Source: an uncultured Bacteroidales bacterium (GTDB lineage: Bacteria > Bacteroidota > Bacteroidia > Bacteroidales > UBA932). Taken from it: a DNA stretch of 64,000 nt. Shown piece after piece: positions 22,971 through 61,067 of this stretch. The notes beneath the pieces were generated by a model. The model worked only from the letters and a program-made list of their open reading frames with translations. It did no database searches and was not told where the DNA came from. The stretch's first letter is position 1, and every line of letters begins with the position of its first letter. A program made the position numbers and the translations under genes. Location of the stretch: NCBI GenBank assembly GCA_900319855.1, contig ONQC01000001.1, forward strand, positions 52,398-116,397, written 5' to 3'.

Positions 22971-23001
22971 TTTGCATTCCGGGCATTATTTCGTAATTTT
23001 G
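22971..23001 (+). promoter_or_regulatory. Consensus Bacteroidetes promoter for trxA
   Basis: TTTG at 22971-22974, exactly 19 bases, then TAATTTTG at 22994-23001: the full -33/-7 architecture of the Bacteroidetes primary sigma factor. The trxA ATG is at 23059. Confidence 0.8.
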
Positions 23002-35397: not shown

Positions 35398-35428
35398 CAA
35401 AGGTACGCAGAAAACCGATAATTCCAAA
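35398..35428 (-). promoter_or_regulatory. Consensus Bacteroidetes promoter for metK
   Basis: On the minus strand TTTG (35428-35425), 19 bases, then TACCTTTG (35405-35398). The start of transcription would fall near 35391, just before the SAM-II aptamer. Confidence 0.85.
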
Positions 35429-35499
35429 CTTTTTTTGCGATAAAACGATGAAATATAAGATAAAACGATTTTTTATTTTCCGATTCTCATGGATTATTT

Positions 35500-35507
35500 T
35501 ATCTTTG
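35500..35507 (+). promoter_or_regulatory. -7 promoter element for the first Oar-like receptor
   Basis: TATCTTTG with TTTC at the -33 position, 37 bases before the ATG at 35545. The surrounding 316-base gap between metK and this gene is otherwise taken up by the metK leader. Confidence 0.65.
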
Positions 35508-38905: not shown

Positions 38906-38936
38906 TTTGTATTTCATTCGGATTTCCGTATCTTTG
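38906..38936 (+). promoter_or_regulatory. Consensus promoter for the caspase-like/fimbrillin-like unit
   Basis: TTTG (38906-38909), 19 bases, TATCTTTG (38929-38936), then 56 bases to the ATG at 38993. Confidence 0.85.
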
Positions 38937-45553: not shown

Positions 45554-45611
45554 CTGCCTGCTGACCGCAGTTCCTGCCATTCAAACCGTTTTAGATTCCA
45601 ATTTTTTTGGC

Positions 45612-45619
45612 TATATTTG
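45612..45619 (+). promoter_or_regulatory. -7 promoter element of the proposed nucleic-acid operon
   Basis: TATATTTG, 43 bases before the ATG at 45663. The preceding terminator and the short gaps in the following seven genes make this the likely single promoter of the unit. Confidence 0.65.
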
Positions 45620-45662
45620 TCAATTACTATTCCTTTTTTTGGACAAAAACAACCAAAATATT

Positions 45663-48600
45663 ATGTATCAACTGATTAAGAAAGGTTTGGCAGTCCTTGC
45701 CGCAGCATTCGTCGCGGTGACGGCCTTTGCGCAGGTGACTACCTCCTCCCTTGGCGGTCGCATCACGGAGGACGGCGGTGAGCCGCTGGCCGGTGCCGCC
45801 GTCATCGCCGTGCACACCCCGTCCGGCACCCAGTACGCCGCCATCACCAACAATGACGGCCGCTATGCCATCCAGGGCATGCGTACCGGCGGTCCCTACA
45901 CCGTGGAAGTCTCCTTCCTCGGCATGGGCACCCTCCGTTACGAGGACATCACCCTGAAACTCGGTGAACCCTATGAACTCAACGCCGAGCTCAAGTCCAC
46001 CAACGAACTGAACGCCGTGACGGTCGTGGCGGAGAAATCCTTCAATGCCAGCATTACCGGCGCCGGCTCCTCCTTCAGCCAGCGCGTGGTCGAGACGATG
46101 CCGACCATCGACCGCAGTATCTACGACGTGGTCAAGTACACCCCGCAGGCGTCGATGAACAAGGGCGGCGGCATCTCTTTCTCCGGTGCCAACAACCGCT
46201 ACAACTCCTTCCAGATCGACGGCGCCGTGGCCAATGATACCTTCGGCCTGTCCAGTTCCGGTACCAACGGCGGCCAGACCGACGCCAACCCGGTCGCCCT
46301 GGACGCCATCGAAGAGATCCAGGTCGTCGTGGCGCCGTTCGACGTGCGCCAGTCCGGTTTCACGGGCGGTGCCATCAACGCGATCACCAAGTCCGGTACC
46401 AACACCGTCAAGGGTTCGGCCTATACCTACTACACCAACCAGGAACTGATCGGTACGACCCCGGGCAACAAGGAACAGGTCAAGTACTTCAATGCCGACG
46501 GCAAACGCACCAAGTACGAGAAGCAGTACTCCGAGACCTTCGGTTTCACCGTCGGCGGCCCGATCATCAAGAACAAGCTCTTCCTTTTCCTGAGCGGCGA
46601 GTATTACAAGAACTCCCGGCCGAACATCTACACCCCGGCCAACGCCTCCTATGAGAAGGACGACCTCAAGCTCTCCCAGACCGTTGAACTGGAGGATGGC
46701 AGCACCTACGACTATTTCAACGCCGAACTCGCCGAGAAGCTCATCAGTTTCTACGAGAAGACCTACAAGGTAAGCAACACGGGCGAGAACTTCAAGCAGC
46801 ACCAGATCGATATCCGTTCCTACAATGTCCTGGCCCGCCTGGACTGGAACATCAACGAGGCCAACAAGCTGATGCTCCGCTATCAGTACATGGACGCCTT
46901 CAAGGACCGTTACGCCTCCAACTACCGGACGTATTACTACAACAATTCGTCCTACCTGCAGGCCAACAAGACCAACACCTTCGTGGCGGAGCTCAACTCC
47001 CGGATCTCCCCGTCGGTCTCCAACATGCTGCGTGCGACCGCAGTCTTCGTCCGTGACCACCGCGACATCCCCTACAAGGGCGCCAACAACTACATCAAGG
47101 ACAAGGTCTATGTCAACATCGGTACCGAGTATTCCTCCGGCGGCAACCGCATGAATTCCGACACCTATACGATCACGGACAACCTCAGTTGGTACCTGGG
47201 CAAGCATGAGTTGACCTTCGGTACCCACAACGAGATCTACAAGTTCGACAACCTCTTCCTGCAGTACGCCTTCGGCGAATACGAGTTCGCTTCCCTGAAC
47301 GACTATTTCCACAATTCCCCTGCAGCGTTCTATTACCGGTATTCCGACCCGGCCGTGACCGGCTCCAACGACACGACCAACTGGGCCGCCGCCACCTACG
47401 CCGCCCAGTTCGGTCTCTATGCCCAGGATGAGTGGAAGCCCAATACCAACCTGACCCTGACCTACGGCCTGCGCGTCGACGTCCCGGTCCTGCTGAACAA
47501 TCCTACCGAGAACCCGGAATTCAACAAGGGTCCCATTTCCGCAGCATCCGGCGAAAAAGTCGGTGTCGTTCCGAGAGTCGTCCCTCTCTGGTCCCCGCGT
47601 GTGGGCTTCCGCTGGTTCCTCAACGACAGCCATGCGACCCTGCTGCGCGGCGGCGCCGGCCTCTTCACCGGCCGTATCCCGTTCGTGTGGATCTCCAATG
47701 CCTACAACAACACCGGCATGGAGACCAAGTACGTGCGGGTCAATCAGCCGGCGTACGGCAAGTTCCCGTTCACCAGCGATCCGTATAATGAAATCGTCAA
47801 GGCCGGTCTCGCCGAGGAGCAAGGCGGCCAGGCCACGATCAATACCCTGAACCGCAACTTCAAGTATCCGCAGGTCTTCCGTGCCAACCTCGGCTTCGAG
47901 CAGGTCTTTGGCGGCGGCTGGAAGTTCACCTTCGACGGCCTCTTCTCCAAGACCCTCAACAACGTGTTCTTCAAGAACCTGGCCCTCCAGCAGAAGGGTG
48001 TGGTCTACGGTGTGGATGCCGCAAATGCCCATGAAAACAGCGTCGCTCCGTACTATACAACGGAGGATATCCCTTACAACGCGGTCATCGCCCTGCTGAA
48101 CACCAACAAGGGCTATACGTATTCGTTCAGCGGCCAGATCCAGAAACATTTCGACTTCGGCCTCGACCTGATGGCGGCCTATACCTTCGGCCATGCCTAT
48201 TCCGTCAACGACGGTACCTCTTCGATTGCGAACTCCAACTGGCAGGGCAACACTTCCGTCGACACCAACGGCATGGAACTGGGCCACTCGCTCTTTGACA
48301 AGACCCATAAGCTGACGGGCGTCGTGTCCTACCGGACCCCGAAATACCTCGGCGGCCGCCTGCAGTCGACCTTCACCCTGTCTTACGAAGCCGGCAGCGG
48401 CCAGCGCTTCTCCTACACGATGAATGAAAACGCCGTCGATTTCAACAACGACGGCCGTACCGGCAACTCCCTGCTGTACATCCCGACCCCGGCCGAAATC
48501 GGCCAGATGAACTGGTCCACCCCGGGCGATGCCGCCGCCTTCGAGCGCTACATCCGCGATGACAGCTACCTGTCCTCCCACCGGGGCCGGTGGTCCGAGC

Positions 48601-48911
48601 GTTTCGCCGCACAGGCTCCGTTCGAGCACCATTTCGACTTCCAGTTCGCCCAGGATTTCCTCTACGACCGTCGTAACGGCCGCAAGGTCCAGCTGACCCT
48701 GGACATCCTGAACGTGGGCAACCTGCTCAACCGCGCCTGGGGCATGTACTACAGCAGCGTTACGTCCCGCCAGATCCTGACGGTGACCGCTTCCAGCCTG
48801 GATGCCGCAGGCAACATGACCCCGACCTACCACTTCGATCCGCAGACCGTCAACCTGGCGGACTTCAACTCCCGCTGGCGGATGCAGGTCGGCGTACGTT
48901 TCACCTTCTAA
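45663..48911 (+). CDS. Oar-like TonB-dependent receptor, first gene of the nuclease operon
   Basis: I chose the ATG at 45663 (MYQLIKKGLAVLAAAFVAVTAFAQ), giving 1082 aa with a good signal peptide; the open frame from 45360 crosses the terminator and promoter. The domain order is the same as in the receptor at 35545: CarboxypepD_reg-like (TSSLGGRITEDGGEPLAGAAV), plug (FSQRVVETMPTIDRSIYDVVKYTPQ; SGFTGGAINAITKSGTN), barrel with LLRGGAGLFTGRIPFVWIS, and the final strand MQVGVRFTF. It is a clear paralogue of that gene and also has strong codon bias. It has no SusD partner. Its position ahead of two secreted nucleases suggests uptake of their products or binding of their substrate, which is inference. 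Confidence 0.9.
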   Translation: MYQLIKKGLAVLAAAFVAVTAFAQVTTSSLGGRITEDGGEPLAGAAVIAVHTPSGTQYAAITNNDGRYAIQGMRTGGPYTVEVSFLGMGTLRYEDITLKLGEPYELNAELKSTNELNAVTVVAEKSFNASITGAGSSFSQRVVETMPTIDRSIYDVVKYTPQASMNKGGGISFSGANNRYNSFQIDGAVANDTFGLSSSGTNGGQTDANPVALDAIEEIQVVVAPFDVRQSGFTGGAINAITKSGTNTVKGSAYTYYTNQELIGTTPGNKEQVKYFNADGKRTKYEKQYSETFGFTVGGPIIKNKLFLFLSGEYYKNSRPNIYTPANASYEKDDLKLSQTVELEDGSTYDYFNAELAEKLISFYEKTYKVSNTGENFKQHQIDIRSYNVLARLDWNINEANKLMLRYQYMDAFKDRYASNYRTYYYNNSSYLQANKTNTFVAELNSRISPSVSNMLRATAVFVRDHRDIPYKGANNYIKDKVYVNIGTEYSSGGNRMNSDTYTITDNLSWYLGKHELTFGTHNEIYKFDNLFLQYAFGEYEFASLNDYFHNSPAAFYYRYSDPAVTGSNDTTNWAAATYAAQFGLYAQDEWKPNTNLTLTYGLRVDVPVLLNNPTENPEFNKGPISAASGEKVGVVPRVVPLWSPRVGFRWFLNDSHATLLRGGAGLFTGRIPFVWISNAYNNTGMETKYVRVNQPAYGKFPFTSDPYNEIVKAGLAEEQGGQATINTLNRNFKYPQVFRANLGFEQVFGGGWKFTFDGLFSKTLNNVFFKNLALQQKGVVYGVDAANAHENSVAPYYTTEDIPYNAVIALLNTNKGYTYSFSGQIQKHFDFGLDLMAAYTFGHAYSVNDGTSSIANSNWQGNTSVDTNGMELGHSLFDKTHKLTGVVSYRTPKYLGGRLQSTFTLSYEAGSGQRFSYTMNENAVDFNNDGRTGNSLLYIPTPAEIGQMNWSTPGDAAAFERYIRDDSYLSSHRGRWSERFAAQAPFEHHFDFQFAQDFLYDRRNGRKVQLTLDILNVGNLLNRAWGMYYSSVTSRQILTVTASSLDAAGNMTPTYHFDPQTVNLADFNSRWRMQVGVRFTF

Positions 48912-48924
48912 TCCCTGCGAACGT

Positions 48925-49752
48925 ATGAAAAAGATCTATATCGCTTTGATGGCCCTGCTCGCAGTGGCCGCGTGCAAGGAAAAAGAAATCAACCTGGCTT
49001 CCCGCGTGATCATCTCCCAGACGGAGGAACTCGTGGTGGAGGCCGAGAATGTCCCGACCCTGGCCGTGGAGGTCGTCTCCGACGGCGACTGGGTCGTGGT
49101 GACCCCCGACTGGATCTCCGCCAGCCCGCGTTATGGCCGGGGCGACGGAACCATCCTGTTCAATATCGCTGACAACTATACGAACGGTGAGATGAATGCC
49201 GACCGCCAGGCGACGGTTTCCGTCGAGTGCGCCAGCGGCGCCTCCTCCTTCCTGGTCAAGCAGGCCGGCGACCCGATGAAGGGCAACGTCTATCTGCCGG
49301 TGACCGAGGTCAAGGATGGTGGAGTCTATCTGCTGGTGGCTCCGAACAAGGATGGCGCCCTGACGGTCGCCAGGCCGATTAAGAATTACGGTTACATCCA
49401 GGTAACGACGGAGATGATGGGCGATGCGGAAAAGATCGCCATGGCCAAGGCCGACAACGAATTTACCTTCGTGGCCGTCGACGGCGGATGGAACATCGTC
49501 CAGCCGGACGGGCGTTATGTGTACCAGAAGGGCACGTTCAACAGTTTCAACGTGGTGGCCGATAAGTCAGATCCGGACGGCTCCTATGTCTGGACCGTGA
49601 CCTTCGACGCAGACGGGTATGCAACGATCACCAATGTCGGCATGAACAAGTGGGTCCAGTTCAGCCTGACCCATGGCTCCTATGGCTGCTACCCCAGCGC
49701 CCAGGACAGCGGTGTCCTCCCGAGACTCTACGAAAAAGTTGAAAATCAATAA
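48925..49752 (+). CDS. BACON-domain lipoprotein
   Basis: This 275-aa lipoprotein has MKKIYIALMALLAVAAC with Cys17 as anchor. Residues about 35-115 form a BACON-like domain (VPTLAVEVVSDGDWVVVTPDWIS...ATVSVECASGASSFLVKQAGD). The remaining 160 residues are beta-rich (GGVYLLVAPNKDGALTVARPI, NEFTFVAVDGGWNIVQPDGRYVYQ, WTVTFDADGYATITNVGMNKW) and resemble a ligand-binding sandwich seen in Bacteroidetes outer-surface proteins, without a name I can give. It starts 13 bases after the receptor and ends 11 before the next lipoprotein. It may fill the SusD-like capture role that is missing in this operon. Confidence 0.8.
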   Translation: MKKIYIALMALLAVAACKEKEINLASRVIISQTEELVVEAENVPTLAVEVVSDGDWVVVTPDWISASPRYGRGDGTILFNIADNYTNGEMNADRQATVSVECASGASSFLVKQAGDPMKGNVYLPVTEVKDGGVYLLVAPNKDGALTVARPIKNYGYIQVTTEMMGDAEKIAMAKADNEFTFVAVDGGWNIVQPDGRYVYQKGTFNSFNVVADKSDPDGSYVWTVTFDADGYATITNVGMNKWVQFSLTHGSYGCYPSAQDSGVLPRLYEKVENQ

Positions 49753-49763
49753 TTACGGATAAA

Positions 49764-52559
49764 ATGAAAATCAGAAATCTCATCATGTCCCTCCTGGCGG
49801 TGGCTGCGCTCGCCGCGACCGGCTGCCGGGAAGAGGAGCAGGATCTCGGGCTGCCCGAGGTCAAGGTCGGAACGACCCAGTTGAGCTTCGATGCCGGCAT
49901 CGGTACCAACACCGTGACCGTCAACACGACCCGTGACTGGAAAGCCGTCGCGACCGTCGACTGGATCGATGTCTCCCCGAAGAGCGGCGTCGGCTACGAA
50001 AACGCCGTCCTGACCATTTCGGTCCTGGAGAACGAAGGCTACAACCGGACGGGTTCCGTCCGTGTGGACATCGGCTATGACTACAAGACCATCCTGGTCC
50101 ACCAGGCAGGTCCGCTCGGCGAGAAGACCGAAGGTACGGGTACCCTCGAGGATCCGTTCACCCCGGCCGGCGCCGCGGCTGCGGCCAGCGCCCTGGCGGC
50201 CGACGAGGAAGCCGGTCCGTACTACATCAAGGGTATCATTACCACCATTTCTACGACTTTCGAGGCCAGCGGAACCTACGGTAATGCAAGCTTCTTCATT
50301 TCTGAGGACGGGACGGAGAACACGAAGTCGTTCCAGGTTTACCAGACCTACTATCTGGGAAACAAGAAGTGGACGGCTTCCCTCGGTCCGGATGTCAAGG
50401 TCGGTGACGAAGTCATCATCTATGGCAAGATCACCAATTTCAAGGGCAACACCCCGGAGACCGTCGGAAAGGGAGGCAGCTACATCTACTCCCTGAACGG
50501 CGAGACCGGCGGCGTGACCCCGGGTGAAGGCGACGAGCCCAAGGGTACGGGAACCCTCGAAGATCCGTACAACCCGGCCGGTGCGGCCGATGCGGTCAAG
50601 GACCTGACCTGGACCGACAAAGATAATTACGACAAGATCGGCCCTGTCTATGTCAAGGGCAAGATCTCGAAGATCGCAGATAATGGGACCTATACTCAAA
50701 GCGGCACCTTCGGCAATGCGACCTTCTATATGACCGAGGACGGCGAGAGCGGAACGGAATTCTATGCTTACCGCATCCTCTATCTGGGCAACAAGAAGTA
50801 CTCGTCCGGAGACGATATCAAGGTCGGTGACGAAGTCATCGTCTATGGCGAGATCATGAATTACCGGGGCAACACCCCTGAAACAGTGCAAGGTTCCGCG
50901 TATCTGTACTCCCTGAACGGCAATACCGGCGGCGACACCCCGACTCCGCAACCGGGCGACGATATCACGACGGCGACGATTGCCGAGATCAAGGCGGCGC
51001 CGGTGGACGACAGCAAGTTGTACAAGTTGACGGCGACAATCAAGACCATCAAGAATGCGACCTACGGCAACTTGGTCGTGACGGATGCGACGGGCGAGCT
51101 GGATATCCAGGGCCTGATCAAGGGCACGGCTGTCGGCGCGAATGACAAGAGTTTCGCCGACCTGGGCCTTGCTGTGGGTGACAAGATTACCATCGTGGGT
51201 GTCCGTCAGGAGTTCAACGGCACGCCGCAGCTGGGTTCCAATAACCTGGCTTGCTACTTCGTCTCGAAGGAAGAAGGTGGCGATCCGACCCCGGGCGGAA
51301 ACGGCAGCGGAACGCTGGCAGATCCGTACACGCCGAAGGGAGCAATCGATGCGGTCAAGGACCTGAAGTGGACGAGCAACTCAGATTATGAGACGACCGG
51401 TGATGTCTATGTGAAGGGTAAGATTTCTCGGATTAAGGGGACTTATACCGAGGGCGGAACGTACGGCAACGCGTCGTTCTATATTTCCGCGGACGGTACC
51501 GAGACGGACGAGTTCTATGCTTTCCGCATCCTCTATCTGGGGAACAAGAAATTCGAAGCGGGACAGACCGACATCAAGGTCGGCGACGAAGTCGTCATCT
51601 ATGGCAAGTTGATGAATTATCAGAATAATACGCCGGAAACGGAGGCGAACAAAGCCTACCTGTACTCCCTGAACGGCAATACCGGCGGTGATACCCCGAC
51701 TCCGCAGCCGGGCGGCAACGGCAGCGGCACGCAGGCTGATCCGTACACGCCGAAGGGAGCGATCGATGCCGTCAAGGACCTGACCTGGACAAGCAATACG
51801 GATTATCAGTCCACGGAGGATGTCTATGTAAAGGGCAAGATTTCCCGGATTGCCAGCGGCGGAACCTATACTGAGGGTGGAACGTACGGCAACGCGTCGT
51901 TCTACATTTCCGCGGATGGTACCGAGACGGACGAGTTCTATGCTTTCCGTGTCCTCTATCTGGAGAACAAGAAATTCGAAGAAGGCCAGACCGACATCAA
52001 GGTCGGCGACGAGGTCGTCATCTATGGTAAGTTGATGAATTACAGGGGCAATACGCCGGAAACGGAGGCGAACAAAGCCTACCTGTATTCCCTGAACGGC
52101 TCGACGACACCCGGTGGTGGTGGCGGCGACACGCCGACCGGCAGCACGGTTTCCTTCGATACAAACGCGTCTGCCCAGACCTGGTCGGCGGAGACCGACG
52201 GCACCTATGGCGCCGGCTTCTCCTCCACGACGCAGGGCGTCAAAGTCGGCTATTACAAGCATACCAGTACCAGTGCGGCTGTTACTCCGAACGATCAGCA
52301 CATCCGTGTCTACAAGAATTCTGTATTGTCCGTTACGGCCCCGACCGGGAAAAAGATCAAGGAAATGGTCTTGAAGACGGAGCCGAAGTCTGGGGACAGA
52401 GAATATTGTTTTGACATGGCTGGTCTGGAGGGTGGTGCCTCTGCCACGGCCAATAAAGAGGCGCTGACCGTTACCTGGTCCGGTAGTGCGGAGAAAATCG
52501 TTCTCCATGCCAATAACGGTCAGGTCCGGATCAAATCGATTTCCCTCACCCTCGAATAA
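49764..52559 (+). CDS. Lipoprotein with BACON domain and repeated OB-like (DUF6359-type) modules
   Basis: This 931-aa lipoprotein has its anchor Cys in ALAATGCREE. Residues about 32-120 are BACON-like (VGTTQLSFDAGIGTNTVTVNTTRDW). Then four copies of a module of about 120 aa occur (starting near residues 124, 261, 512 and 650): G-x-L-x-DP-[FY]-x-P-x-GA, YVKGKISKI, GTYGNASFYIS, YLGNKK, IKVGDEVVIYGKLMNY, NTPETE..AYLYSLNG. Between the second and third is a distinct OB-like domain (about 395-505; KLYKLTATIKTIKNATYGNLVVTDATG). A jelly-roll-like C-terminal domain of about 140 aa follows. YVKG...VVIYG patterns are typical of OB folds, which often bind nucleic acid. Modules are separated by Pro/Gly/Thr-rich linkers. 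Confidence 0.82.
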   Translation: MKIRNLIMSLLAVAALAATGCREEEQDLGLPEVKVGTTQLSFDAGIGTNTVTVNTTRDWKAVATVDWIDVSPKSGVGYENAVLTISVLENEGYNRTGSVRVDIGYDYKTILVHQAGPLGEKTEGTGTLEDPFTPAGAAAAASALAADEEAGPYYIKGIITTISTTFEASGTYGNASFFISEDGTENTKSFQVYQTYYLGNKKWTASLGPDVKVGDEVIIYGKITNFKGNTPETVGKGGSYIYSLNGETGGVTPGEGDEPKGTGTLEDPYNPAGAADAVKDLTWTDKDNYDKIGPVYVKGKISKIADNGTYTQSGTFGNATFYMTEDGESGTEFYAYRILYLGNKKYSSGDDIKVGDEVIVYGEIMNYRGNTPETVQGSAYLYSLNGNTGGDTPTPQPGDDITTATIAEIKAAPVDDSKLYKLTATIKTIKNATYGNLVVTDATGELDIQGLIKGTAVGANDKSFADLGLAVGDKITIVGVRQEFNGTPQLGSNNLACYFVSKEEGGDPTPGGNGSGTLADPYTPKGAIDAVKDLKWTSNSDYETTGDVYVKGKISRIKGTYTEGGTYGNASFYISADGTETDEFYAFRILYLGNKKFEAGQTDIKVGDEVVIYGKLMNYQNNTPETEANKAYLYSLNGNTGGDTPTPQPGGNGSGTQADPYTPKGAIDAVKDLTWTSNTDYQSTEDVYVKGKISRIASGGTYTEGGTYGNASFYISADGTETDEFYAFRVLYLENKKFEEGQTDIKVGDEVVIYGKLMNYRGNTPETEANKAYLYSLNGSTTPGGGGGDTPTGSTVSFDTNASAQTWSAETDGTYGAGFSSTTQGVKVGYYKHTSTSAAVTPNDQHIRVYKNSVLSVTAPTGKKIKEMVLKTEPKSGDREYCFDMAGLEGGASATANKEALTVTWSGSAEKIVLHANNGQVRIKSISLTLE
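50134..52100 (+). repeat. Coding tandem repeats for the OB-like modules
   Basis: Four related units start near 50134, 50544, 51297 and 51711. The last two, 414 bases apart, are almost the same over long stretches at the DNA level (for example the run around 51470-51520 and 51890-51940), pointing to a recent duplication. The first two are more diverged. Spacing is not short enough for a CRISPR and the repeat keeps the frame. Confidence 0.85.
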
Positions 52560-52571
52560 AACCATCCTGTC

Positions 52572-53876
52572 TTGAAGACTGACAAGTTCATACGGCGGAT
52601 CCTCCCGGCAGTGCTCCTCGGAGCGCTGCTGGCGGGGGCCGTGTCCTGCGGCGGCGACAAGGGCGGCAGCGACGACCCGGTCGCCCCGGCGACCCTGACC
52701 CTGCGGACGAATCCCGTTACTTCAGAGGTCGGTTCCCAATCGGCAACGATTCTTGCAACCGGAGCGTGGACGCTTTCTTCTGACCAGGACTGGCTGACGG
52801 TTTGTCCGTTAAAGGCTGGAGAGGCAAGGGAGACTGCCAAGAGGTCTTTGTCTGGAACGGGTGATGCCACGATCGTCTACTATTATACGATCAATCCGGG
52901 AGAAGATGCCCGGACCGCGACATTGACCCTCAAGTCCGGAAGCAATTCTGTTTCAGTCGTCCTGACCCAGAAAGGTCTGGCTAAGATTAACGGACAGAAG
53001 ACTGCAAAAGTAGGTTGGTTGGAACTTCCTCAGACGGATGCGGATGACAATAAGTATTTCTTCACCCACGACATGACCCTTGGTAGTAAATCCATTCGGA
53101 ACTATTCGTTCTATTGGGACTATTCCAACCTGGTTTCCTGGTGGGTGGCGTATCCGCTGAATGCTGCTTTGCTAGTAAAGAATCTTCCCAAGCGGTCGGA
53201 TGCTTGGGGCTTGGATCCGCTTCTACCAAGAGCAGAACAACAAGTAATTCATGCTCGAACCTACACGAATGACAGTGGCGAGAAAGTTACCCGAGCATAC
53301 TTTACTAATGCAAATTGCACGAATGGATCCGGCTATACAAAGGGTCATCAAATCCCTTCGGCTGACCGCCTGTATGACTATGCCTCGAATGCGCAGACCT
53401 TTTATGGGACGAACATGACACCGCAGAACTATGATTTTAATGGGGGAACGTGGGAAAAGTTAGAGGAGAATGTTCGGGAATGGGCAAAAAAATCCACGAC
53501 AGACACACTGTATGTTTGCACAGGCTGCGTGGTTTCTAACGGTGGGCAGAAAGTTTATGACCACGACGGAAAGCCTGTCGCAGTCCCTACCGCTTATTTC
53601 AAGGCATTGCTGATCCATGAGAAGTCTTCCAGTCACACTTTTGATGCGACTGGGGGGTATTCATCCTGTGCCTTCTTCTTCGATCATGCCGAGTACAGTA
53701 CATCCGGCAAGAGTGGCCTGAGTAAGGCACAAGTGAAAGACCTGGCCATCTCCGTCGAAGATCTGGAGAAGAAGCTGGGATACAAGCTGTTCGTAAACCT
53801 GCCCGACAAGATCGGGGCCGACAAGGCCGCGACCGTGAAAAAGACCGATCCCAAGACGGTTTCCTGGTGGAAATAG
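52572..53876 (+). CDS. DNA/RNA non-specific endonuclease lipoprotein with BACON domain
   Basis: This 434-aa protein starts with TTG at 52572, the only start giving a full signal and lipobox (LLGALLAGAVSC). Residues about 40-135 are BACON-like (LTLRTNPVTSEVGSQSATILATGAWTLSSDQDW). The rest is the EndoG/NucA-type ββα-metal nuclease: YTKGHQIPSADR puts the catalytic His at about residue 259 (DRGH in most relatives, so the Asp-Arg are replaced), then FYGTNMTPQNYDFNGGTWEKLEENVREWA with the metal-binding Asn, and DTLYVCTGCV. It cuts DNA and RNA in known relatives. The catalytic half is visibly less GC-rich than the flanking genes. Confidence 0.88.
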   Translation: MKTDKFIRRILPAVLLGALLAGAVSCGGDKGGSDDPVAPATLTLRTNPVTSEVGSQSATILATGAWTLSSDQDWLTVCPLKAGEARETAKRSLSGTGDATIVYYYTINPGEDARTATLTLKSGSNSVSVVLTQKGLAKINGQKTAKVGWLELPQTDADDNKYFFTHDMTLGSKSIRNYSFYWDYSNLVSWWVAYPLNAALLVKNLPKRSDAWGLDPLLPRAEQQVIHARTYTNDSGEKVTRAYFTNANCTNGSGYTKGHQIPSADRLYDYASNAQTFYGTNMTPQNYDFNGGTWEKLEENVREWAKKSTTDTLYVCTGCVVSNGGQKVYDHDGKPVAVPTAYFKALLIHEKSSSHTFDATGGYSSCAFFFDHAEYSTSGKSGLSKAQVKDLAISVEDLEKKLGYKLFVNLPDKIGADKAATVKKTDPKTVSWWK

Positions 53877-53906
53877 TCTTCAAGACGATGATTTAAATTA
53901 CGCGAT

Positions 53907-54974
53907 ATGAAAAAGTTACTCTATACCTTACTGATTGTCCTGCTGGCCGCTCCGGTGGCCATGGGGGCCGGCAAGAAGAGCTACGTGATCGGGTTCTACA
54001 ACCTCGAGAACCTCTTCGATACCTACCACGATGAAGGGAAGAACGATGAAGAGTATCTCCCCGACGGTGCCAACCAGTGGACGGAGGCCAAGTATGCCAA
54101 GAAACTCAAGAACATGGCGTCGGTCATCCGCGCGATGAAGGAAGAGAACAAGGCCTGGCACGCCATCCTGGGCGTCAGCGAGATCGAGAACCGCCATGTC
54201 CTCGAGGACCTGGTCTCCCAGCCGGAGATCGCCGAGGCCAACTACCAGATCGTCCACTATGACGGTCCGGACCGCCGCGGCGTCGACGTGGCCCTGTTCT
54301 ACCGGCCGGAGCTCTTTACGCTCCTGGAGAGCCGGTCCATCCCGTTCGACTTCAACAGCAACCTGGACTTCGGCATGAGCGAAGAGGAAAAAGCCGATTT
54401 CCGCACCCGTGACATCCTGATGGTCCGCGGCATGCTCGGCGACGAGATGTTCGCCTTCTTCGTGGCGCACCTCCCGTCCCGCCTGGGCGACAAGAGCAGC
54501 GCCCTGCGCAGCCGCGGCGGCGAAATCATGTACCAGACCAGCCGCGAATTGATGGCCGCCTATCCGGGCATCAAGATCGTGGCCATGGGCGATATGAACG
54601 ACAACCCGACCGACGACAGCATGGCCGTGCAGATGCGCGGTCGCGAGAAGATCGAGGAGGTCGGACCGGAGGATTTCTTCTCTCCGTTCCTGTCCATGCT
54701 CAAGGCCGGTTACAGCTCGTTGTTCTACCGCGGCAGCGGCAACATCTATGACATCCTGGTCTGCAACTACAACCTGGCCCACGCGCCGAAGGGGACCCTG
54801 CAGATCCAGCCGATCGTCAAGAAGAAGTACTACGGCCGGGTGTTCCACCAGCCGTTCATGACCCAGCAGGACGGGCAGTATGCCGGCCAGCCGTTCCGCA
54901 CCTATTCCAACGGTGCCTTCGTCGGCGGCTATTCCGACCACTATCCGACCTATATCATCGTCAGCAACAAATAG
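53907..54974 (+). CDS. Exported endonuclease/exonuclease/phosphatase family protein
   Basis: This 355-aa protein has a cleavable signal (LLYTLLIVLLAAPVAMGAG). EEP motifs are in order: GFYNLENLFDT (catalytic Asn), ILGVSEIENRHVLEDL (metal Glu), DRRGVDVALFYRPE, AMGDMNDNPTDDS (Asp-Asn pair) and the final GGYSDHYPTYIIV (Asp-His). The fold includes DNase I-like nucleases, phosphodiesterases and phosphatases. Its place between a non-specific nuclease and a TonB-dependent receptor suggests a nuclease acting on nucleic-acid fragments in the periplasm or on the surface. It could instead be a phosphatase that releases phosphate. Confidence 0.88.
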   Translation: MKKLLYTLLIVLLAAPVAMGAGKKSYVIGFYNLENLFDTYHDEGKNDEEYLPDGANQWTEAKYAKKLKNMASVIRAMKEENKAWHAILGVSEIENRHVLEDLVSQPEIAEANYQIVHYDGPDRRGVDVALFYRPELFTLLESRSIPFDFNSNLDFGMSEEEKADFRTRDILMVRGMLGDEMFAFFVAHLPSRLGDKSSALRSRGGEIMYQTSRELMAAYPGIKIVAMGDMNDNPTDDSMAVQMRGREKIEEVGPEDFFSPFLSMLKAGYSSLFYRGSGNIYDILVCNYNLAHAPKGTLQIQPIVKKKYYGRVFHQPFMTQQDGQYAGQPFRTYSNGAFVGGYSDHYPTYIIVSNK

Positions 54975-54984
54975 ACGGAAATAA

Positions 54985-57891
54985 ATGAAATACGATATGA
55001 CAAAGAAACTTATCCTGGCATTTGCGGCCATCCTGTGCACCCTGGGCCTTGCCGCCCAGACGTACACGGGCGGCGTCAAGGGTACGGTGATCAACCGTAC
55101 CGACCGGCAGCCGGTCGCAGAGGCTACCCTGGTCCTCATGCAGGGGTTGGAGGAGATTGCGACGGCCACGTCGGACGCCTCGGGCAACTTCCTGATCCCG
55201 GACCTGGCGGACGGAATGTACGACCTGGTCATCACGGCGCCTGATTTCATCGAGACGCGGGTCAACGTGACGGTCAACGACGGCTATGTCAAGAACATGT
55301 TCAACTTGTCCATGACACCGTCCCAGGTGGTCAACGAGGTGGATGTCGAGAACCTGGTCGAGTTCGACCTGGATGACAGCGGCTACAGCGACAACCCGAC
55401 CGTCCTGTTCGGCCAGAACGATGTCTTTAACGAGATCGCCGGCTTCAATTTCAGTGACATCCGTTTCCGTGTGCGCGGCTATTCTTCCGAGAGCCAGGAC
55501 GTCTACCTGGCCGGCGTTCGGATGAACGATGCCATCACGGGCTATTCCCCGTTCTCCCTGTGGAGCGGCCTCAATGAGGCGACCCGCACGAAGAACACGG
55601 TCAATGGCGCGGAGATCGCGGACTGGGGCATCGGCGGCTACAACGGCCTGACCAACATCCCGGTCAACGCCTCGTCCGTCCGCAAGGGCTGGCGCGGAAG
55701 CATCCTGACCAACAGCGCCCTGTACCGTCTCCGCCTGATGATGACCTATTCCTCCGGCCAGCTGGACAACGGCTGGGCCTACGCCATCAGCGCCTCCGCC
55801 CGTCTGGGCGGCAACGACTGGGTGCAGGGCCAGTACTACCGTTCCTTCGGCTACTATGCCGCCGTCGAGAAGCAGTTCGACGACGTGCACCGGCTGGGTC
55901 TGGTGTTCATGGCGACCCCGGGCAACCGCGGCAAGCAGAACTCTTCGACCCAGGAGGTCTACGACCTGATGGGGGACAACATGTACAACAGCAACTGGGG
56001 CTACCAGAACGGCAAGATGCGCAACTCCCGCCTGGCGATCACCCACGAACCGATCGCCATCCTGAAGTACGACTTCACCCCGTCCTATAAGTTCAATGCG
56101 TCCGCCACGGTGCTCTATCGTTTCGGCAAGAACGGCGCGACGGCCCTCGACTGGTACGACGCCGCGGATCCGCGTCCGGACTACTACCGCAACCTGCCGA
56201 GCTACTTCTGGAACGATGACGAGGAGTACAACCGCTTGAACATGTCCAAGTCGATGTGGGCGCGTGACGCCTGGGAGAACCAGGATCCGAGCGTGGTGCA
56301 CGTCAACTGGGACCGCATGTACAACGTCAACAAGCTGAACATCATCGACGGACAGCGCCGTTCCAAGTACGCGGTCGAGGAGCGCCGCGCCGACCAGCGC
56401 GACCTCAACCTCGCCGCCAGCTTCAAGTGGCGCCCGGACCGGGACATCATCCTGACCGGCGGCTGGAACGCCAAGTTCAACCGCACCGAGCACTTCAAGG
56501 TCCTGTACGACCTGCTGGGCGGCGACTACTTCCTGGACGTCGACTCCTTCGCCGACCGCGACTTCTCCGCCTATCCGTACATGACCCAGAACGACCTGGG
56601 TTACTGGATGGAGCATGGCGAGGCCCGCAAGGTCCGCTCCGGCGACAAATACGGCTATGACTACTATGCGCAGGTCCGCAAGACCGAGGCCTGGTTCTCC
56701 GCCCGCGCGGAGGCCAAGGGCTTCGAGGCGGCCATCGGCGGCCGTCTGGGCTACACCGCCTTCTGGCGCGAGGGCCTGGTCCGCAAGGGCCTCTTCCCGG
56801 GCCTGAACGACGACGGCTCCGCCTTCCTAGTGGACGGCCAGCCGGTCACCAACTATGACAGCGACGGTAAGCCGGTGACCTCCTTCGGCAAGTCCGCCGT
56901 GCAGGATTTCATCACGGGCGCAGTCAAGGGCAACCTGGCCTACGTCATCCGCGGCGGCCACCGCATCTACTTCAATGCCGGCTACTTCAGCGACGCCCCG
57001 ACGTTCAACCAGACCTTCATGTCGCCGAGGACCCGCAACACCGTGATCCCGGATGTCAAGAACGTGCAGACCTTCACGACCGACCTGAACTACCAGTTCT
57101 CCAACAACGGCTACAACCTCCGCCTGACCGGCTTCTGGACCTATATCAAGGACCAGTCCGACGTGATGAGTTTCTACGATGACTCCCAGCACTCCTTCAC
57201 GAACTTCGCGATGACTGGCATCGACCAGCGCCACATCGGCATGGAACTCGGTTTCCAGGTCCCGACCCCGATTCCGGACCTGTCCGTCGAAGGCGTCCTG
57301 AGCTATGGCAACTATGTCTATACCTCCAACCCGGTCATGTACCAGACCATCGATAACAACGCCTCCGTCGTCGCCGACACCTACGGGGTCAAGATCCCGT
57401 ATTGGAAGAGCCATCCGACGGCCGACGGCGAGACGGTCCGCCACTATGTCCCGAGCACGCCGCAGCTGGCCTCCAGCCTCGGCCTGAGCTGGAACCACAA
57501 CTACTGGTTCATCGACCTGGCCGCGCAGTATTTTGACAAGGCCTACCTGGACATGAACCCGGTCTACCGCACCGACATGGCGACCGCCGGCAACGACGGC
57601 ATCGTGACCATGGAGGAAGTCGAGTACATGGCTGCCCAGGAGAAATTCGACCCGGCCTTCCTGATGAACGCGTCCATCGGCAAGTCCTGGTACATCCAGC
57701 GCAAATACCAGCTGGGCTTCTCCCTGAACATGAAGAACCTGCTGAACAACCGCAATGTCCGCACCGGCGGTTATGAGAACACCCGCCTCATCAGCAATAC
57801 CAAGAGCAAGGAGCGCTACTTCCGCTTCGACCCGAAGTATTTCTACATGAGCGGTTTCAATTACATGTTGAACATTTATTTCAGATTCTAG
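54985..57891 (+). CDS. TonB-dependent receptor with carboxypeptidase-regulatory-like domain
   Basis: This 968-aa outer-membrane protein has an alternative start at MTKK, 12 bases later. The signal ends LGLAAQ, and a CarboxypepD_reg-like domain covers about residues 28-112 (GGVKGTVINRTDRQPVAEATLVL). The plug contains FRVRGYSSESQDVYLAGVRMNDAITG, and the barrel ends MLNIYFRF with the terminal Phe. It differs from the two Oar-like receptors and matches the group that is paired with a DUF5689 lipoprotein; that gene begins 4 bases after its stop. With EEP upstream and DUF5689 downstream it forms the second half of the operon. Substrate unknown. Confidence 0.9.
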   Translation: MKYDMTKKLILAFAAILCTLGLAAQTYTGGVKGTVINRTDRQPVAEATLVLMQGLEEIATATSDASGNFLIPDLADGMYDLVITAPDFIETRVNVTVNDGYVKNMFNLSMTPSQVVNEVDVENLVEFDLDDSGYSDNPTVLFGQNDVFNEIAGFNFSDIRFRVRGYSSESQDVYLAGVRMNDAITGYSPFSLWSGLNEATRTKNTVNGAEIADWGIGGYNGLTNIPVNASSVRKGWRGSILTNSALYRLRLMMTYSSGQLDNGWAYAISASARLGGNDWVQGQYYRSFGYYAAVEKQFDDVHRLGLVFMATPGNRGKQNSSTQEVYDLMGDNMYNSNWGYQNGKMRNSRLAITHEPIAILKYDFTPSYKFNASATVLYRFGKNGATALDWYDAADPRPDYYRNLPSYFWNDDEEYNRLNMSKSMWARDAWENQDPSVVHVNWDRMYNVNKLNIIDGQRRSKYAVEERRADQRDLNLAASFKWRPDRDIILTGGWNAKFNRTEHFKVLYDLLGGDYFLDVDSFADRDFSAYPYMTQNDLGYWMEHGEARKVRSGDKYGYDYYAQVRKTEAWFSARAEAKGFEAAIGGRLGYTAFWREGLVRKGLFPGLNDDGSAFLVDGQPVTNYDSDGKPVTSFGKSAVQDFITGAVKGNLAYVIRGGHRIYFNAGYFSDAPTFNQTFMSPRTRNTVIPDVKNVQTFTTDLNYQFSNNGYNLRLTGFWTYIKDQSDVMSFYDDSQHSFTNFAMTGIDQRHIGMELGFQVPTPIPDLSVEGVLSYGNYVYTSNPVMYQTIDNNASVVADTYGVKIPYWKSHPTADGETVRHYVPSTPQLASSLGLSWNHNYWFIDLAAQYFDKAYLDMNPVYRTDMATAGNDGIVTMEEVEYMAAQEKFDPAFLMNASIGKSWYIQRKYQLGFSLNMKNLLNNRNVRTGGYENTRLISNTKSKERYFRFDPKYFYMSGFNYMLNIYFRF

Positions 57892-57895
57892 GACC

Positions 57896-58996
57896 ATGAA
57901 AAGATTTGCAATGATTTTCGCCGCCGCGGCGGTGCTGCTCTCTTCCTGCGAGGAATGGGATCCGGTCGTGAATGTGAAATATGACGACGTCTATGTGGAC
58001 GAGGGCGTGACGATGACCCCGAATACGACCATCGCCGAGCTCAAGGCCCTGTATACGACCGCCGGCCAGCCGGTCAAGCTGGAAGACGACGACATGGTCA
58101 TCGGCGGCCAGGTGATTTCCGAGGACCGTTCCGGCAACATCTACAAGAGCCTGTACATACAGGACGAGACCGGCGCCATCGAGATCAAGCTCGGCAAGAA
58201 CGGCATCTACAACGATTACCAGCCGGGCCGTTGGGTCTATGTCAAGCCGTCCGGCCTGACCCTGGGCGACTACGAAGGCATGCTCCAGCTGGGCTGGCGC
58301 CGCAACCAGAACGCCCTGGGCGAGGATGCGGCCGATACCGATGCCGACGGGGACAACTCCGATAAGTATGAGACCAGCTACATCGAGGTCGACTATATCA
58401 TCAATACCCATATCTTCAAGGGCAAGATGGGAACTCCCGTCGAGCCGAAGGTGCTGACGGAGGATGACCTCAAGGCCAACCTGGCGACCCGTCCGATGCC
58501 CCAGCAGGGCCCGGATTTCGGCCGGCTGGTACGGCTGGACGGACTGCTGTATGGCAAGGAGGTCTTCTGCCTGGTCTATCCGGATCCGAACATGCCCCAT
58601 GACAAGGACCATTCCGAGAACCGGGTCTTCCTTTCCGACAAGGACTGGAACATCAAGACCTGGGGCCTGACCAAGGAACGCATGATCGCCCACCTGGAGG
58701 CCGGCGACTTCGACGCCGCCACCCTGGGCGACAACTCCAAGCCCGTGTCCGATCCCGAGGTCAAGGCGAAGCTGCTCAAGAATGCCGGCGCCTATGCCGT
58801 GAGCCAGTACTTCAAAATGGGCCAGACCACCGTCCAGATCCGTACCAGCGGATACGCCCGTTTCGCGGACAAGGAGCTGGATCCGAAAATCCTGACGGGC
58901 CAGTACCCGATCAGCGTGACCGGCATCCTGACCAACTACCAGGGTTCCATCCAGTTCACGTTGATTGACGAAGACAGCATCGTCCTTCTCCAGTAA
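57896..58996 (+). CDS. DUF5689 lipoprotein
   Basis: This 366-aa lipoprotein has MKRFAMIFAAAAVLLSSC with Cys18 as anchor. The N-terminal part has the DUF5689 pattern: TIAELKALYTTAGQPVKLEDDDMVIGGQVISEDRSGNIYKSLYIQDETGAIEIKLG, then YQPGRWVYVKPSGLTLGDYEGMLQLG, an OB-like strand order. A C-terminal part repeats a similar order (ILTGQYPISVTGILTNYQGSIQFTLID). It probably caps or assists the TonB-dependent receptor encoded just upstream as a surface substrate-binding protein. The operon ends here, with a terminator 5 bases downstream. Confidence 0.85.
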   Translation: MKRFAMIFAAAAVLLSSCEEWDPVVNVKYDDVYVDEGVTMTPNTTIAELKALYTTAGQPVKLEDDDMVIGGQVISEDRSGNIYKSLYIQDETGAIEIKLGKNGIYNDYQPGRWVYVKPSGLTLGDYEGMLQLGWRRNQNALGEDAADTDADGDNSDKYETSYIEVDYIINTHIFKGKMGTPVEPKVLTEDDLKANLATRPMPQQGPDFGRLVRLDGLLYGKEVFCLVYPDPNMPHDKDHSENRVFLSDKDWNIKTWGLTKERMIAHLEAGDFDAATLGDNSKPVSDPEVKAKLLKNAGAYAVSQYFKMGQTTVQIRTSGYARFADKELDPKILTGQYPISVTGILTNYQGSIQFTLIDEDSIVLLQ

Positions 58997-59000
58997 ATTC

Positions 59001-59025
59001 AAAGGCCGGTCCGCCGGCCTTTTTT
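59001..59025 (+). terminator. Intrinsic terminator at the end of the nuclease operon
   Basis: AAAGGCCGG (59001-59009) pairs with CCGGCCTTT (59014-59022) over a TCCG tetraloop, followed by T-rich sequence. The next gene starts at 59040, so part of the transcription may read through. Confidence 0.9.
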
Positions 59026-59039
59026 CAATAGGAAAAACA

Positions 59040-61067
59040 ATGAAAAAAGCAACACTGATCCTAGCATCCATCCTTATGATGACCGCTTGCAGCCAGCCGA
59101 AGAACCCTTTCCTTCAGGAATGGAATACTCCGTATGGCACCGCCCCCTTCAGCCAGATTACCGAGGCTGACTACCTCCCTGCCATCCAGGAAGGTCTCAA
59201 GCAGCAGAAAGCCGAAATCCAGGCCATTATCGATTGCCCGGACGCCCCGACCTTCGAGAACACCATCGCCGCCTATGAACTGTCCGGCGGCCTGCTCGCC
59301 AAGGTGACCGGCGTATTTTACAATATCTCCGAGTCCGATGCGACCCCGGCCATCCAGGCCCTGGTCGACGAGGTGACTCCGATCATGACGGCTGCCGAAG
59401 ACGAGATCTTCATGAACGCCGCTTTCTTCGCCCGCGTCAAGGCGGTCTATGAGAACCGGGCTTCCCTTGACCGGGAACAGCAGATGGTGACCGAGAAACT
59501 CTATCGCCGCTTCGTCCGCAACGGCATCGACCTCGATGCCGCCGGCCAGGCCCGTTTCAAGGAGATCAACAGCCGTCTCGCGACCCTCAGCCAGAAATTC
59601 GGCAACAACCTCCTGGCCGAGAACAACGCCTTCAAGGACAAGATCGGCGTGACCGTGTCCCAGTATTCCGATTTCATGACTTCCTGTACCGACCGCGCCA
59701 AGCGTGAAGAGGCCTTCAAGGCCTATTCCAACCGCGGCAACAACGGCGGCGACAATGACAACAACGCCATCGTCCTGGAGATCATGAAACTCCGCACCGA
59801 GCAGGCCAACCTCCTGGGTTACAAGACTTCCGCCGAGTACCTGCTGGCCGACAAGATGGCCGGCGACCCGGTCACGGTCGACAACTTCCTTGCCGAGATC
59901 ATGGCCTCTTCCATGAAGAAAGCCAAGGAAGAGATCGCCGACATGCAGAAGGTCATGGACGAGGACATCAAGGCGGGCGTGCTGCCGGCCGGCTCCAAGA
60001 TCCAGCCTTGGGACTGGTTCTACTATGCTGAAAAGGTCCGCAGCCGCAAATACGACCTGGACGAAGAGCAGACCAAGCCCTATTTCCAGATCGACTCCGT
60101 CCGCAAGGGCGTCTTCTTCGCCGCCAACAAGATCTACGGCATCACGGTCGAACCCGCTCCGGAAGTGGAAGTCTACCACCCGGATGTCAAGGCCTACAAG
60201 CTGACCGACGCCGACGGCTCGCTGCTGGGTATCTTCTATGCCGATTCCTTCACCCGCGACACCAAGCGCGGCGGTGCGTGGATGAACAACTTCCGTGACC
60301 AGTACATCGATGCCTCCGGCAAGGATGTCCGTCCGGTCATCGTCAACGTGTGCAACTTCCCGCCGGCCACCGCGGACACCCCGTCCATGCTGACCATCGA
60401 CCAGGTCCAGACCTGCTTCCATGAGTTCGGCCACGCCCTCCACGGCTTCCTGACGAAATGCCGCTACCGCGACGTGAGCGGCACCTCCGTGACCCGCGAC
60501 TTCGTCGAGATGTTCTCCCAGTTCAACGAGCACTGGGCCTTCCAGCCGGAGATCCTCTCCGCCTATGCCCACAATTGCAAGACCGGCGAGCAAATCCCGG
60601 CCGAGCTCGTCGCCAAGATTGGCAATGCGCTGAAATTCAACCAGGGTTTCACGACCGGTGAACTCTGCGCCGCTTCCATCCTGGACATGAAATGGCATGA
60701 ACTGACCGCCGAGCAGCTCGCATCCTTCACGGACGCGGCATCCATCCGCCAGTTCGAGATCGACAAGTGCAAGGAGATGGGCCTGATCGACGAGATCATC
60801 CCGCGCTACCGCACGACCTACTTCAACCACATCTTCAACAGCGGCTACAGCGCCGGCTACTACAGCTACCTCTGGTCTGAAGTCCTCGATACCGATGCGT
60901 TCGAGTATTTCCAGGCCCATGGCATCTACAATCCGGAGGTGGCGAAATCCTTCCGCCAGACCTTCCTGGAACGTGGCGGCAGCGAGGAGCCGATGACCCT
61001 CTTCCGCCAGTTCAAGGGCGGCGACCCGGATCCGGGCGCCCTCCTGCGCAACCGCGGACTGGAATAG
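59040..61067 (+). CDS. dcp: M3 family dipeptidyl carboxypeptidase lipoprotein
   Basis: The start at 59040 (MKKATLILASILMMTAC) gives 675 aa with a lipobox Cys; an open frame from 58965 crosses the terminator. The zinc motif is H461-E-F-G-H465 (CFHEFGHALHGFL), with the third ligand Glu in the expected DFVEMFSQFNEHW segment. The N-terminal helices (NPFLQEWNTPYGTAPFSQI) match Bacteroidetes Dcp. The enzyme removes dipeptides from the C-terminus of oligopeptides. In E. coli Dcp is cytoplasmic; here lipidation places it in the periplasm or at the surface. Confidence 0.92.
   Translation: MKKATLILASILMMTACSQPKNPFLQEWNTPYGTAPFSQITEADYLPAIQEGLKQQKAEIQAIIDCPDAPTFENTIAAYELSGGLLAKVTGVFYNISESDATPAIQALVDEVTPIMTAAEDEIFMNAAFFARVKAVYENRASLDREQQMVTEKLYRRFVRNGIDLDAAGQARFKEINSRLATLSQKFGNNLLAENNAFKDKIGVTVSQYSDFMTSCTDRAKREEAFKAYSNRGNNGGDNDNNAIVLEIMKLRTEQANLLGYKTSAEYLLADKMAGDPVTVDNFLAEIMASSMKKAKEEIADMQKVMDEDIKAGVLPAGSKIQPWDWFYYAEKVRSRKYDLDEEQTKPYFQIDSVRKGVFFAANKIYGITVEPAPEVEVYHPDVKAYKLTDADGSLLGIFYADSFTRDTKRGGAWMNNFRDQYIDASGKDVRPVIVNVCNFPPATADTPSMLTIDQVQTCFHEFGHALHGFLTKCRYRDVSGTSVTRDFVEMFSQFNEHWAFQPEILSAYAHNCKTGEQIPAELVAKIGNALKFNQGFTTGELCAASILDMKWHELTAEQLASFTDAASIRQFEIDKCKEMGLIDEIIPRYRTTYFNHIFNSGYSAGYYSYLWSEVLDTDAFEYFQAHGIYNPEVAKSFRQTFLERGGSEEPMTLFRQFKGGDPDPGALLRNRGLE

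Follow-up and report, generated by a model that had tools for sequence, protein, structure and literature searches.

The stretch of DNA analyzed here (the window) comprises 64,000 nucleotides of contig ONQC01000001.1 from an uncultured Bacteroidales bacterium. It corresponds to G000:C19:52398-116397 of the host genome G000, a 2.15-Mb draft in 60 contigs that is about 91% complete. Our subject is a seven-gene operon in this window, which we read as a putative outer-membrane DNA importer built around a TonB-dependent transporter, a DUF5689 lipoprotein and an EEP-family protein. Its features, numbered from the first letter of the window, are as follows.

45589-45619, + strand: Bacteroidota-type promoter box TTT-N20-TANNTTTG (pattern match)
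45663-48911, + strand: first TonB-dependent receptor, CarboxypepD_reg plus OMP_b-brl_4 (Pfam)
48925-49752, + strand: BACON-like lipoprotein (Pfam, below cut-off)
49764-52559, + strand: lipoprotein P0003, BACON plus four related OB-fold modules and other regions (Pfam)
52572-53876, + strand: lipoprotein P0004, DNA/RNA non-specific endonuclease plus BACON, TTG start (Pfam)
53907-54974, + strand: P0005, exported Exo_endo_phos_3 protein (EEP, DNase I-like; Pfam)
54985-57891, + strand: P0006, second TonB-dependent transporter, CarboxypepD_reg, RA0C_RS04915 homologue (Pfam, alignment)
57896-58996, + strand: P0007, DUF5689 OB-fold lipoprotein, RA0C_RS04920 homologue (Pfam, alignment, model)
59001-59025, + strand: intrinsic terminator, 9-bp GC-rich hairpin plus T-run (-15.2 kcal/mol)

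The genes span 45663-58996 and are separated by gaps of 13, 11, 12, 30, 10 and 4 bp. Promoter boxes of the same pattern occur 6 times in the window, compared with 0.09 expected from shuffles, and the one at 45589-45619 is the only one in or next to the operon; the hairpin was not listed by a generic terminator scan. Gene coordinates, box count and hairpin confirm the layout given in a preliminary description of this DNA, namely, a single promoter box followed by seven co-directional genes, 4-30 bp apart, and then one terminator. The Pfam scan likewise bore out the families it had assigned to the seven genes, and no SusD or glycosidase family was among the matches of the seven proteins, so that an ordinary Sus locus could be rejected. 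A Cys lipobox-like motif was seen in four of the proteins, by pattern and by eye.

P0006 matched CarboxypepD_reg (1.1e-11), and its structural model, with a mean predicted local distance difference test score (pLDDT) of 70.9, a poorly modeled plug region and 22 barrel strands by hand count, matched TonB-dependent transporters (PqqU, E 2.4e-25; FecA; OprC). P0007 matched DUF5689 at 1.4e-40; its own PF01336 match (0.0015) fell below the cut-off, and no DUF5017 match was found by Pfam. In the P0007 model, residues from about 40 to 136 mostly had pLDDT values of 86-94 (69.8 for the whole model), and the top Foldseek matches of this domain were OB-containing chains (LysRS, RPA, RMI, SSB). The DUF5689 domain of P0007 thus models as an OB fold. 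A PDB sequence search with the DUF5689 profile gave no relatives.

A counterpart of this gene pair is found in Riemerella anatipestifer, a bacterium of ducks. A transformation screen in this species names a DUF5689 protein, RA0C_RS04920, beside RA0C_RS04915, an outer-membrane protein with a CarboxypepD_reg domain; RS04920 carries DUF5017 in addition to DUF5689 (PMC8459023). Markerless deletion of either gene brought transformation from 5.4e-5 to below the detection limit of 4.2e-10 (PMC8459023). Transformation was also lowered in tonBA and tonBB mutants (PMC8383284), and the published model of uptake includes a periplasmic protein of unassigned identity (PMC8459023). In our literature search, DUF5689 was named only in this screen, and, by titles and the starts of abstracts, no paper dealt with the locus in the order of the window; neither search covered preprints or subscription papers.

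We recognized the Riemerella locus in the genomes compared from the arrangement of its genes, their domains and a named record. In locus L093 (genome G405), the order is RecA, four genes, ComEC, two genes and EEP, followed in the opposite direction by transporter and DUF5689, which fits the tags RS04870 (RecA), RS04895 (ComEC), RS04915 and RS04920; RS04910 would therefore be the EEP gene. Pfam confirmed RecA, ComEC and DUF5689 in L093, DUF5017 being weak and below the cut-off. EEP, transporter and DUF5689 are also carried by G418:C22, from Riemerella's genus, which we took to be R. anatipestifer CCUG25054 NZ_QXHU01000005.1. As a separate observation, Cas1 and Cas2 genes lie near the pair in L093 (L093:18490-19717), as does a Cas9-like frame in L094, also from a Riemerella-genus genome (L094:18210-19898; Pfam match below cut-off), so that an adaptation module stands near a DNA-uptake locus.

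P0006 and the transporter of R. anatipestifer aligned over the full length (28% identity, E 6e-108); P0005 aligned with the Riemerella EEP neighbor (29% identity, E 1e-54) and P0007 with the Riemerella DUF5689 protein (30% over 145 residues, E 3e-13). Judged by these alignments, P0006 and P0007 are homologues of RA0C_RS04915 and RA0C_RS04920, and the operon appears as an enlarged version of the DNA-uptake pair known from Riemerella, with EEP as third conserved partner. The preliminary description knew of no described locus with this exact set of genes; the related transporter-DUF5689 pair, at least, had already been described.

The published account is inconsistent on how far the pair extends, describing homologues as widespread in the phylum, especially in Flavobacteriaceae, and elsewhere confining those of RS04915 to Flavobacteriaceae (PMC8459023). 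Our genome searches scored the best first-look candidates only (three per genome for phylum and order, 14 for the genus), and some absences may be misses. With a transporter profile of 26 rows, matches of at least 500 bits were obtained in 48 of 296 phylum genomes (hand count, window's genome included), the next best among the matches listed scoring 263 bits; 46 of these 48 had a DUF5689 match on the same strand no more than 1 kb away (hand comparison; the exceptions were G076 and G355). Within the window's order, the transporter was present at E ≤ 1e-100 in 126 of 247 genomes and 80 of 165 genera, mostly in one copy, with a few genomes giving more than one match and the weakest few matches (352-494 bits) being doubtful. 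The corresponding figures for the genus were 46 of 61 genomes, and 22 of the 26 good ones. Genome G027 has two strong copies (G027:C49 and G027:C59), each with a DUF5689 match nearby.

Of 64 named loci, mostly from Weeksellaceae and Flavobacterium, 60 contained EEP, transporter and DUF5689; L136 lacked a DUF5689 match, L142 an EEP match, and L143 and L160 an EEP match, their transporter being partial. Endonuclease, EEP, transporter and DUF5689 stand in this order, all co-directional, in the 21 genus loci, in both other loci of the family and in both loci of the sister family (f2). The order contributed 17 other loci, in each of which the transporter is followed by DUF5689; EEP is divergent in 14 of them (not found in L174, L180 and L182), and no same-direction endonuclease was found ahead of the transporter. 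Of 24 loci from other orders, two (L070, L085) hold no transporter in their stretch; the other 22 all have DUF5689 after the transporter, and 20 of them have a divergent EEP, which was not found in L067 and L076. The conserved unit consists of EEP, second receptor and DUF5689. With neighbors conserved in the loci examined, a chance pile-up of nuclease genes was rejected.

In a transporter tree of 46 rows, with weak deep forks and one paralogue on a long branch as contrast, the 12 rows with the endonuclease operon clustered together (99/99 support), and a single rearrangement would suffice to account for them. An Endonuclease_NS-like gene also occurs near the core in two further families of the order, 3' of DUF5689 in L181 and divergent in L180, and because of these arrangements the endonuclease link may have arisen more than once.

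Both nucleases of the operon keep residues that we take to be catalytic. P0004 matched Endonuclease_NS (1.7e-33) and BACON; we take this family to be the beta-beta-alpha metal nucleases of the EndA/Serratia type and H259, N290 and E298 to be catalytic or metal positions, and these three were invariant in 10 of 10 aligned proteins. Two members of the family, EndA of Streptococcus pneumoniae and NucM of Moraxella catarrhalis, have a role in DNA entry (PMC6384898). P0005 matched Exo_endo_phos_3 (2.8e-86) and begins like a signal peptide, with no lipobox found by pattern or eye; it is probably exported and would then reside in the periplasm. Its residues N32, E94, H188, D229, N231, D344 and H345, presumably the catalytic residues of the DNase I-like fold, were invariant in 20 of 20 aligned proteins. 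The window's genome also holds three further NS endonucleases, in loci L002, L001 and L004 (G000:C16, C41 and C39), the one on C16 coming after a protein similar to the BACON lipoprotein of the window.

Nucleases of this kind might also serve self-defense at the cell surface or the remodeling of biofilms, destroying phage, neutrophil-trap or biofilm DNA, while the receptors merely recycle the products. NucM, a secreted nuclease of P0004's family, does affect biofilms (PMC6384898). However, such a function leaves unexplained why DUF5689 comes after the receptor in all 64 hand-picked receptor-bearing loci, as well as the essentiality of the pair for Riemerella transformation (PMC8459023), and we regard it as improbable.

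The genes upstream of the endonuclease proved less constant. The first receptor matched OMP_b-brl_4 at 1.4e-57, its plug match being below the cut-off, and showed no sequence similarity to the second. The lipoprotein at 48925-49752 has a BACON match of 0.0058, under the Pfam cut-off, and P0003 combines BACON with four PF01336 OB stretches (1.6e-17), modules 2-4 being 51-56% identical to module 1; a PDB search with P0003 found no OB relative. Among the 21 genus loci, the first receptor lies upstream in 9 and an OB4-like protein in 15, both counts being lower bounds since several stretches end early (L053, L063, L066 and others). The gene directly 5' of the endonuclease was scanned in 20 of the genus loci, L066 being too short to include it, and matched BACON above the cut-off in 19 and an OB-fold family above the whole-protein cut-off in 10. 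In family loci L164 and L165 and in sister locus L083, this gene encodes a DUF5689 protein; in L084 it matched no family. Two genus loci carry extra enzymes, a metallophosphatase and a second EEP in L047 (L047:2840-5031) and a second EEP in L051 (L051:14559-15323), in the upstream slot held by the first receptor in other genus loci.

The first receptor and the OB modules are therefore accessory, the upstream genes varying between loci. Where the preliminary description had taken the seven families as one set, EEP, second receptor and DUF5689 were kept in the loci examined, but the first receptor (9 of 21) and the OB modules vary.

We favor, with a probability of roughly 70%, a reading of the operon as a TonB-driven outer-membrane DNA importer that would capture, cut and import DNA, with transformation or nutrition as the destination. 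The OB and BACON surface lipoproteins would hold DNA, and the lipid-anchored endonuclease, judging from the catalytic core it retains and from the part that EndA and NucM play in DNA entry, would cut it into pieces. The second transporter and the DUF5689 lipoprotein, energized by TonB, might then pull the DNA across the outer membrane; passage through the transporter barrel is suggested by Riemerella, where the genes are essential for transformation and tonB mutants are impaired. In the periplasm, the exported EEP may process the DNA, perhaps making it single-stranded, after which it could pass to ComEC and DprA for transformation or be degraded for nutrients. The preliminary description had proposed binding, cutting and import of nucleic acid; this is supported by the Riemerella pair, the conserved neighbors, the OB model of DUF5689 and the kept nuclease residues, with DNA as the supported substrate.

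Several observations weigh against this importer reading. Regarding the Riemerella precedent, the authors put the tonBB effect down to iron (PMC8383284), and Flavobacterium johnsoniae has homologues, yet was not competent under the Riemerella conditions (PMC8459023). The 28% identity of P0006 leaves room for a changed substrate. The OB matches of P0007 were no better than E 0.0037 by Foldseek, and hhalign gave no profile match between the P0003 OB modules and DUF5689. As for the nucleases, the P0004 motif reads TKGH, with KGH in place of the RGH present in 9 of 9 aligned relatives, and P0005 had four PDB sequence relatives, all weak, the best being Nocturnin (E 0.003).

These weak EEP relatives, Nocturnin among them, would also suit a receptor operon for some other ligand (a glycan, a peptide or a metal), with nuclease-like genes present by chance or with the EEP acting as a lipid or sugar-phosphate phosphatase. 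The nearest solved folds of P0006 are transporters of pyrroloquinoline quinone, siderophores, copper and B12, as they would be for any member of the fold; an M3 peptidase gene comes after the operon, and further upstream there are a GH95-like gene in L051 (below cut-off), a GH43_C-type gene in L063 and an M23 peptidase in L056. Against this stand the lack of SusD and glycosidase matches in the seven proteins, the presence of two nuclease families that are unrelated and whose active sites are kept, the joint presence of the three core genes in 60 of 64 named loci, and the Riemerella genetics (PMC8459023). We give another ligand little credence.

The competence genes bear on what would become of imported DNA. 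The secretin family PF00263 was absent from 40 of 44 transporter-bearing genomes, including the window's and 6 of 6 from Riemerella's genus, and ComEC and DprA were both found in the window's genome. On the unfavorable side, the remaining four genomes do have a secretin (G016:C6, G041:C1, G050:C1 and G669:C177, with frames of 542-660 amino acids). The window's ComEC (L183:3002-4072) has 356 amino acids, its PF03772 match ends at position 237 of 270, and no DUF4131 match was found in it, whereas the Riemerella ComEC has 602 amino acids and DUF4131. ComEC frames throughout the genus measure 356-477 amino acids, as opposed to 520-731 in the other genomes searched, counting frames without an inner stop; therefore, transformation may have been lost. 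In addition, DprA is kept in the four good genus genomes that lack the transporter (G019, G029, G030 and G058), and ComEC in the three of them that were tried. ComEC and DprA do not co-vary with the transporter, so their co-occurrence with it is uninformative.

A phylogenetic profile of ComEC versus the transporter was powerless, as ComEC occurred in 45 of 45 and 29 of 31 genomes. HHH_3, tried as a stand-in for the helix-hairpin-helix gene of Riemerella, was uninformative, its top matches being proteins of ~710 amino acids that we take to be Tex. A 613-amino-acid gene in L081 was wrongly considered as ComEC, that of G338 being located elsewhere.

The short ComEC of the genus speaks for nutrient scavenging, in which DNA, or nucleotides cut from DNA or RNA, would be imported for phosphate, nitrogen and nucleosides, with no transformation role in the genus. 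So do the two nucleases in one operon, the three more NS endonucleases in the window's genome, and the metallophosphatase and/or second EEP added in L047 and L051. This reading overlaps the one we favor, and we consider it a serious contender, if not quite an even bet: in Riemerella, transformation depends on the homologous pair (PMC8459023), nucleases of this type can act in transformation, as EndA and NucM do (PMC6384898), and the genus retains DprA and an open ComEC frame.

Extending the importer reading beyond the window, we tentatively suggest a wider scheme, which we hold to be somewhat less likely than not. Secretin-less Bacteroidota would import transforming DNA by a TonB transporter with DUF5689, EEP being the missing periplasmic nuclease, and one lineage would have rebuilt this core into an operon with an EndA-like endonuclease and OB/BACON lipoproteins, a TonB-dependent DNA utilization locus.

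Around the operon, the gene at 42734-45499, upstream, encodes a large protein resembling a lipoprotein, in which two HYDIN/ASH-type Ig domains are joined by a part that is Lcl_C-like (below cut-off). After the terminator, 59040-61067 encodes an M3-family peptidase with a lipobox-like start, and 15 of the 21 genus loci have a homologue of it directly 3' of DUF5689. The overrepresented promoter boxes, at sites including 22971-23001, 35398-35507 and 38906-38936, may map transcription units of the window.

Among known systems, the operon shares with the Riemerella pair (PMC8459023) an adjacent homologous transporter and DUF5689 lipoprotein in the same order, and an EEP gene next door. It differs in being a single seven-gene operon, the Riemerella EEP gene being divergent; ahead of the transporter, the Riemerella stretches showed neither an endonuclease nor an OB4-like gene nor a receptor of the first type, and RS04920 has the DUF5017 (PMC8459023) for which P0007 gave no match. 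We offer EEP as the nuclease that lacks a name in the published Riemerella model. P0004 resembles EndA and NucM (PMC6384898) in belonging to the Endonuclease_NS family and in keeping the putative His and metal-ligand positions, but it is a lipoprotein fused to BACON and encoded among TonB receptor genes, with KGH in place of RGH.

The core of the operon, conserved across orders, is a candidate for the route by which bacteria without a secretin bring DNA across the outer membrane. Competence based on type IV pili and a secretin likewise takes DNA across the outer membrane, with ComEC and DprA further in; in contrast, 40 of the 44 transporter-bearing genomes, the window's among them, have no secretin. 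SusC/SusD loci also join a TonB-dependent receptor to a surface lipoprotein; here, however, a DUF5689 OB lipoprotein takes the place of SusD, and nucleases take the place of glycosidases. If DNA is food, the operon would be the nucleic-acid counterpart of Sus loci.

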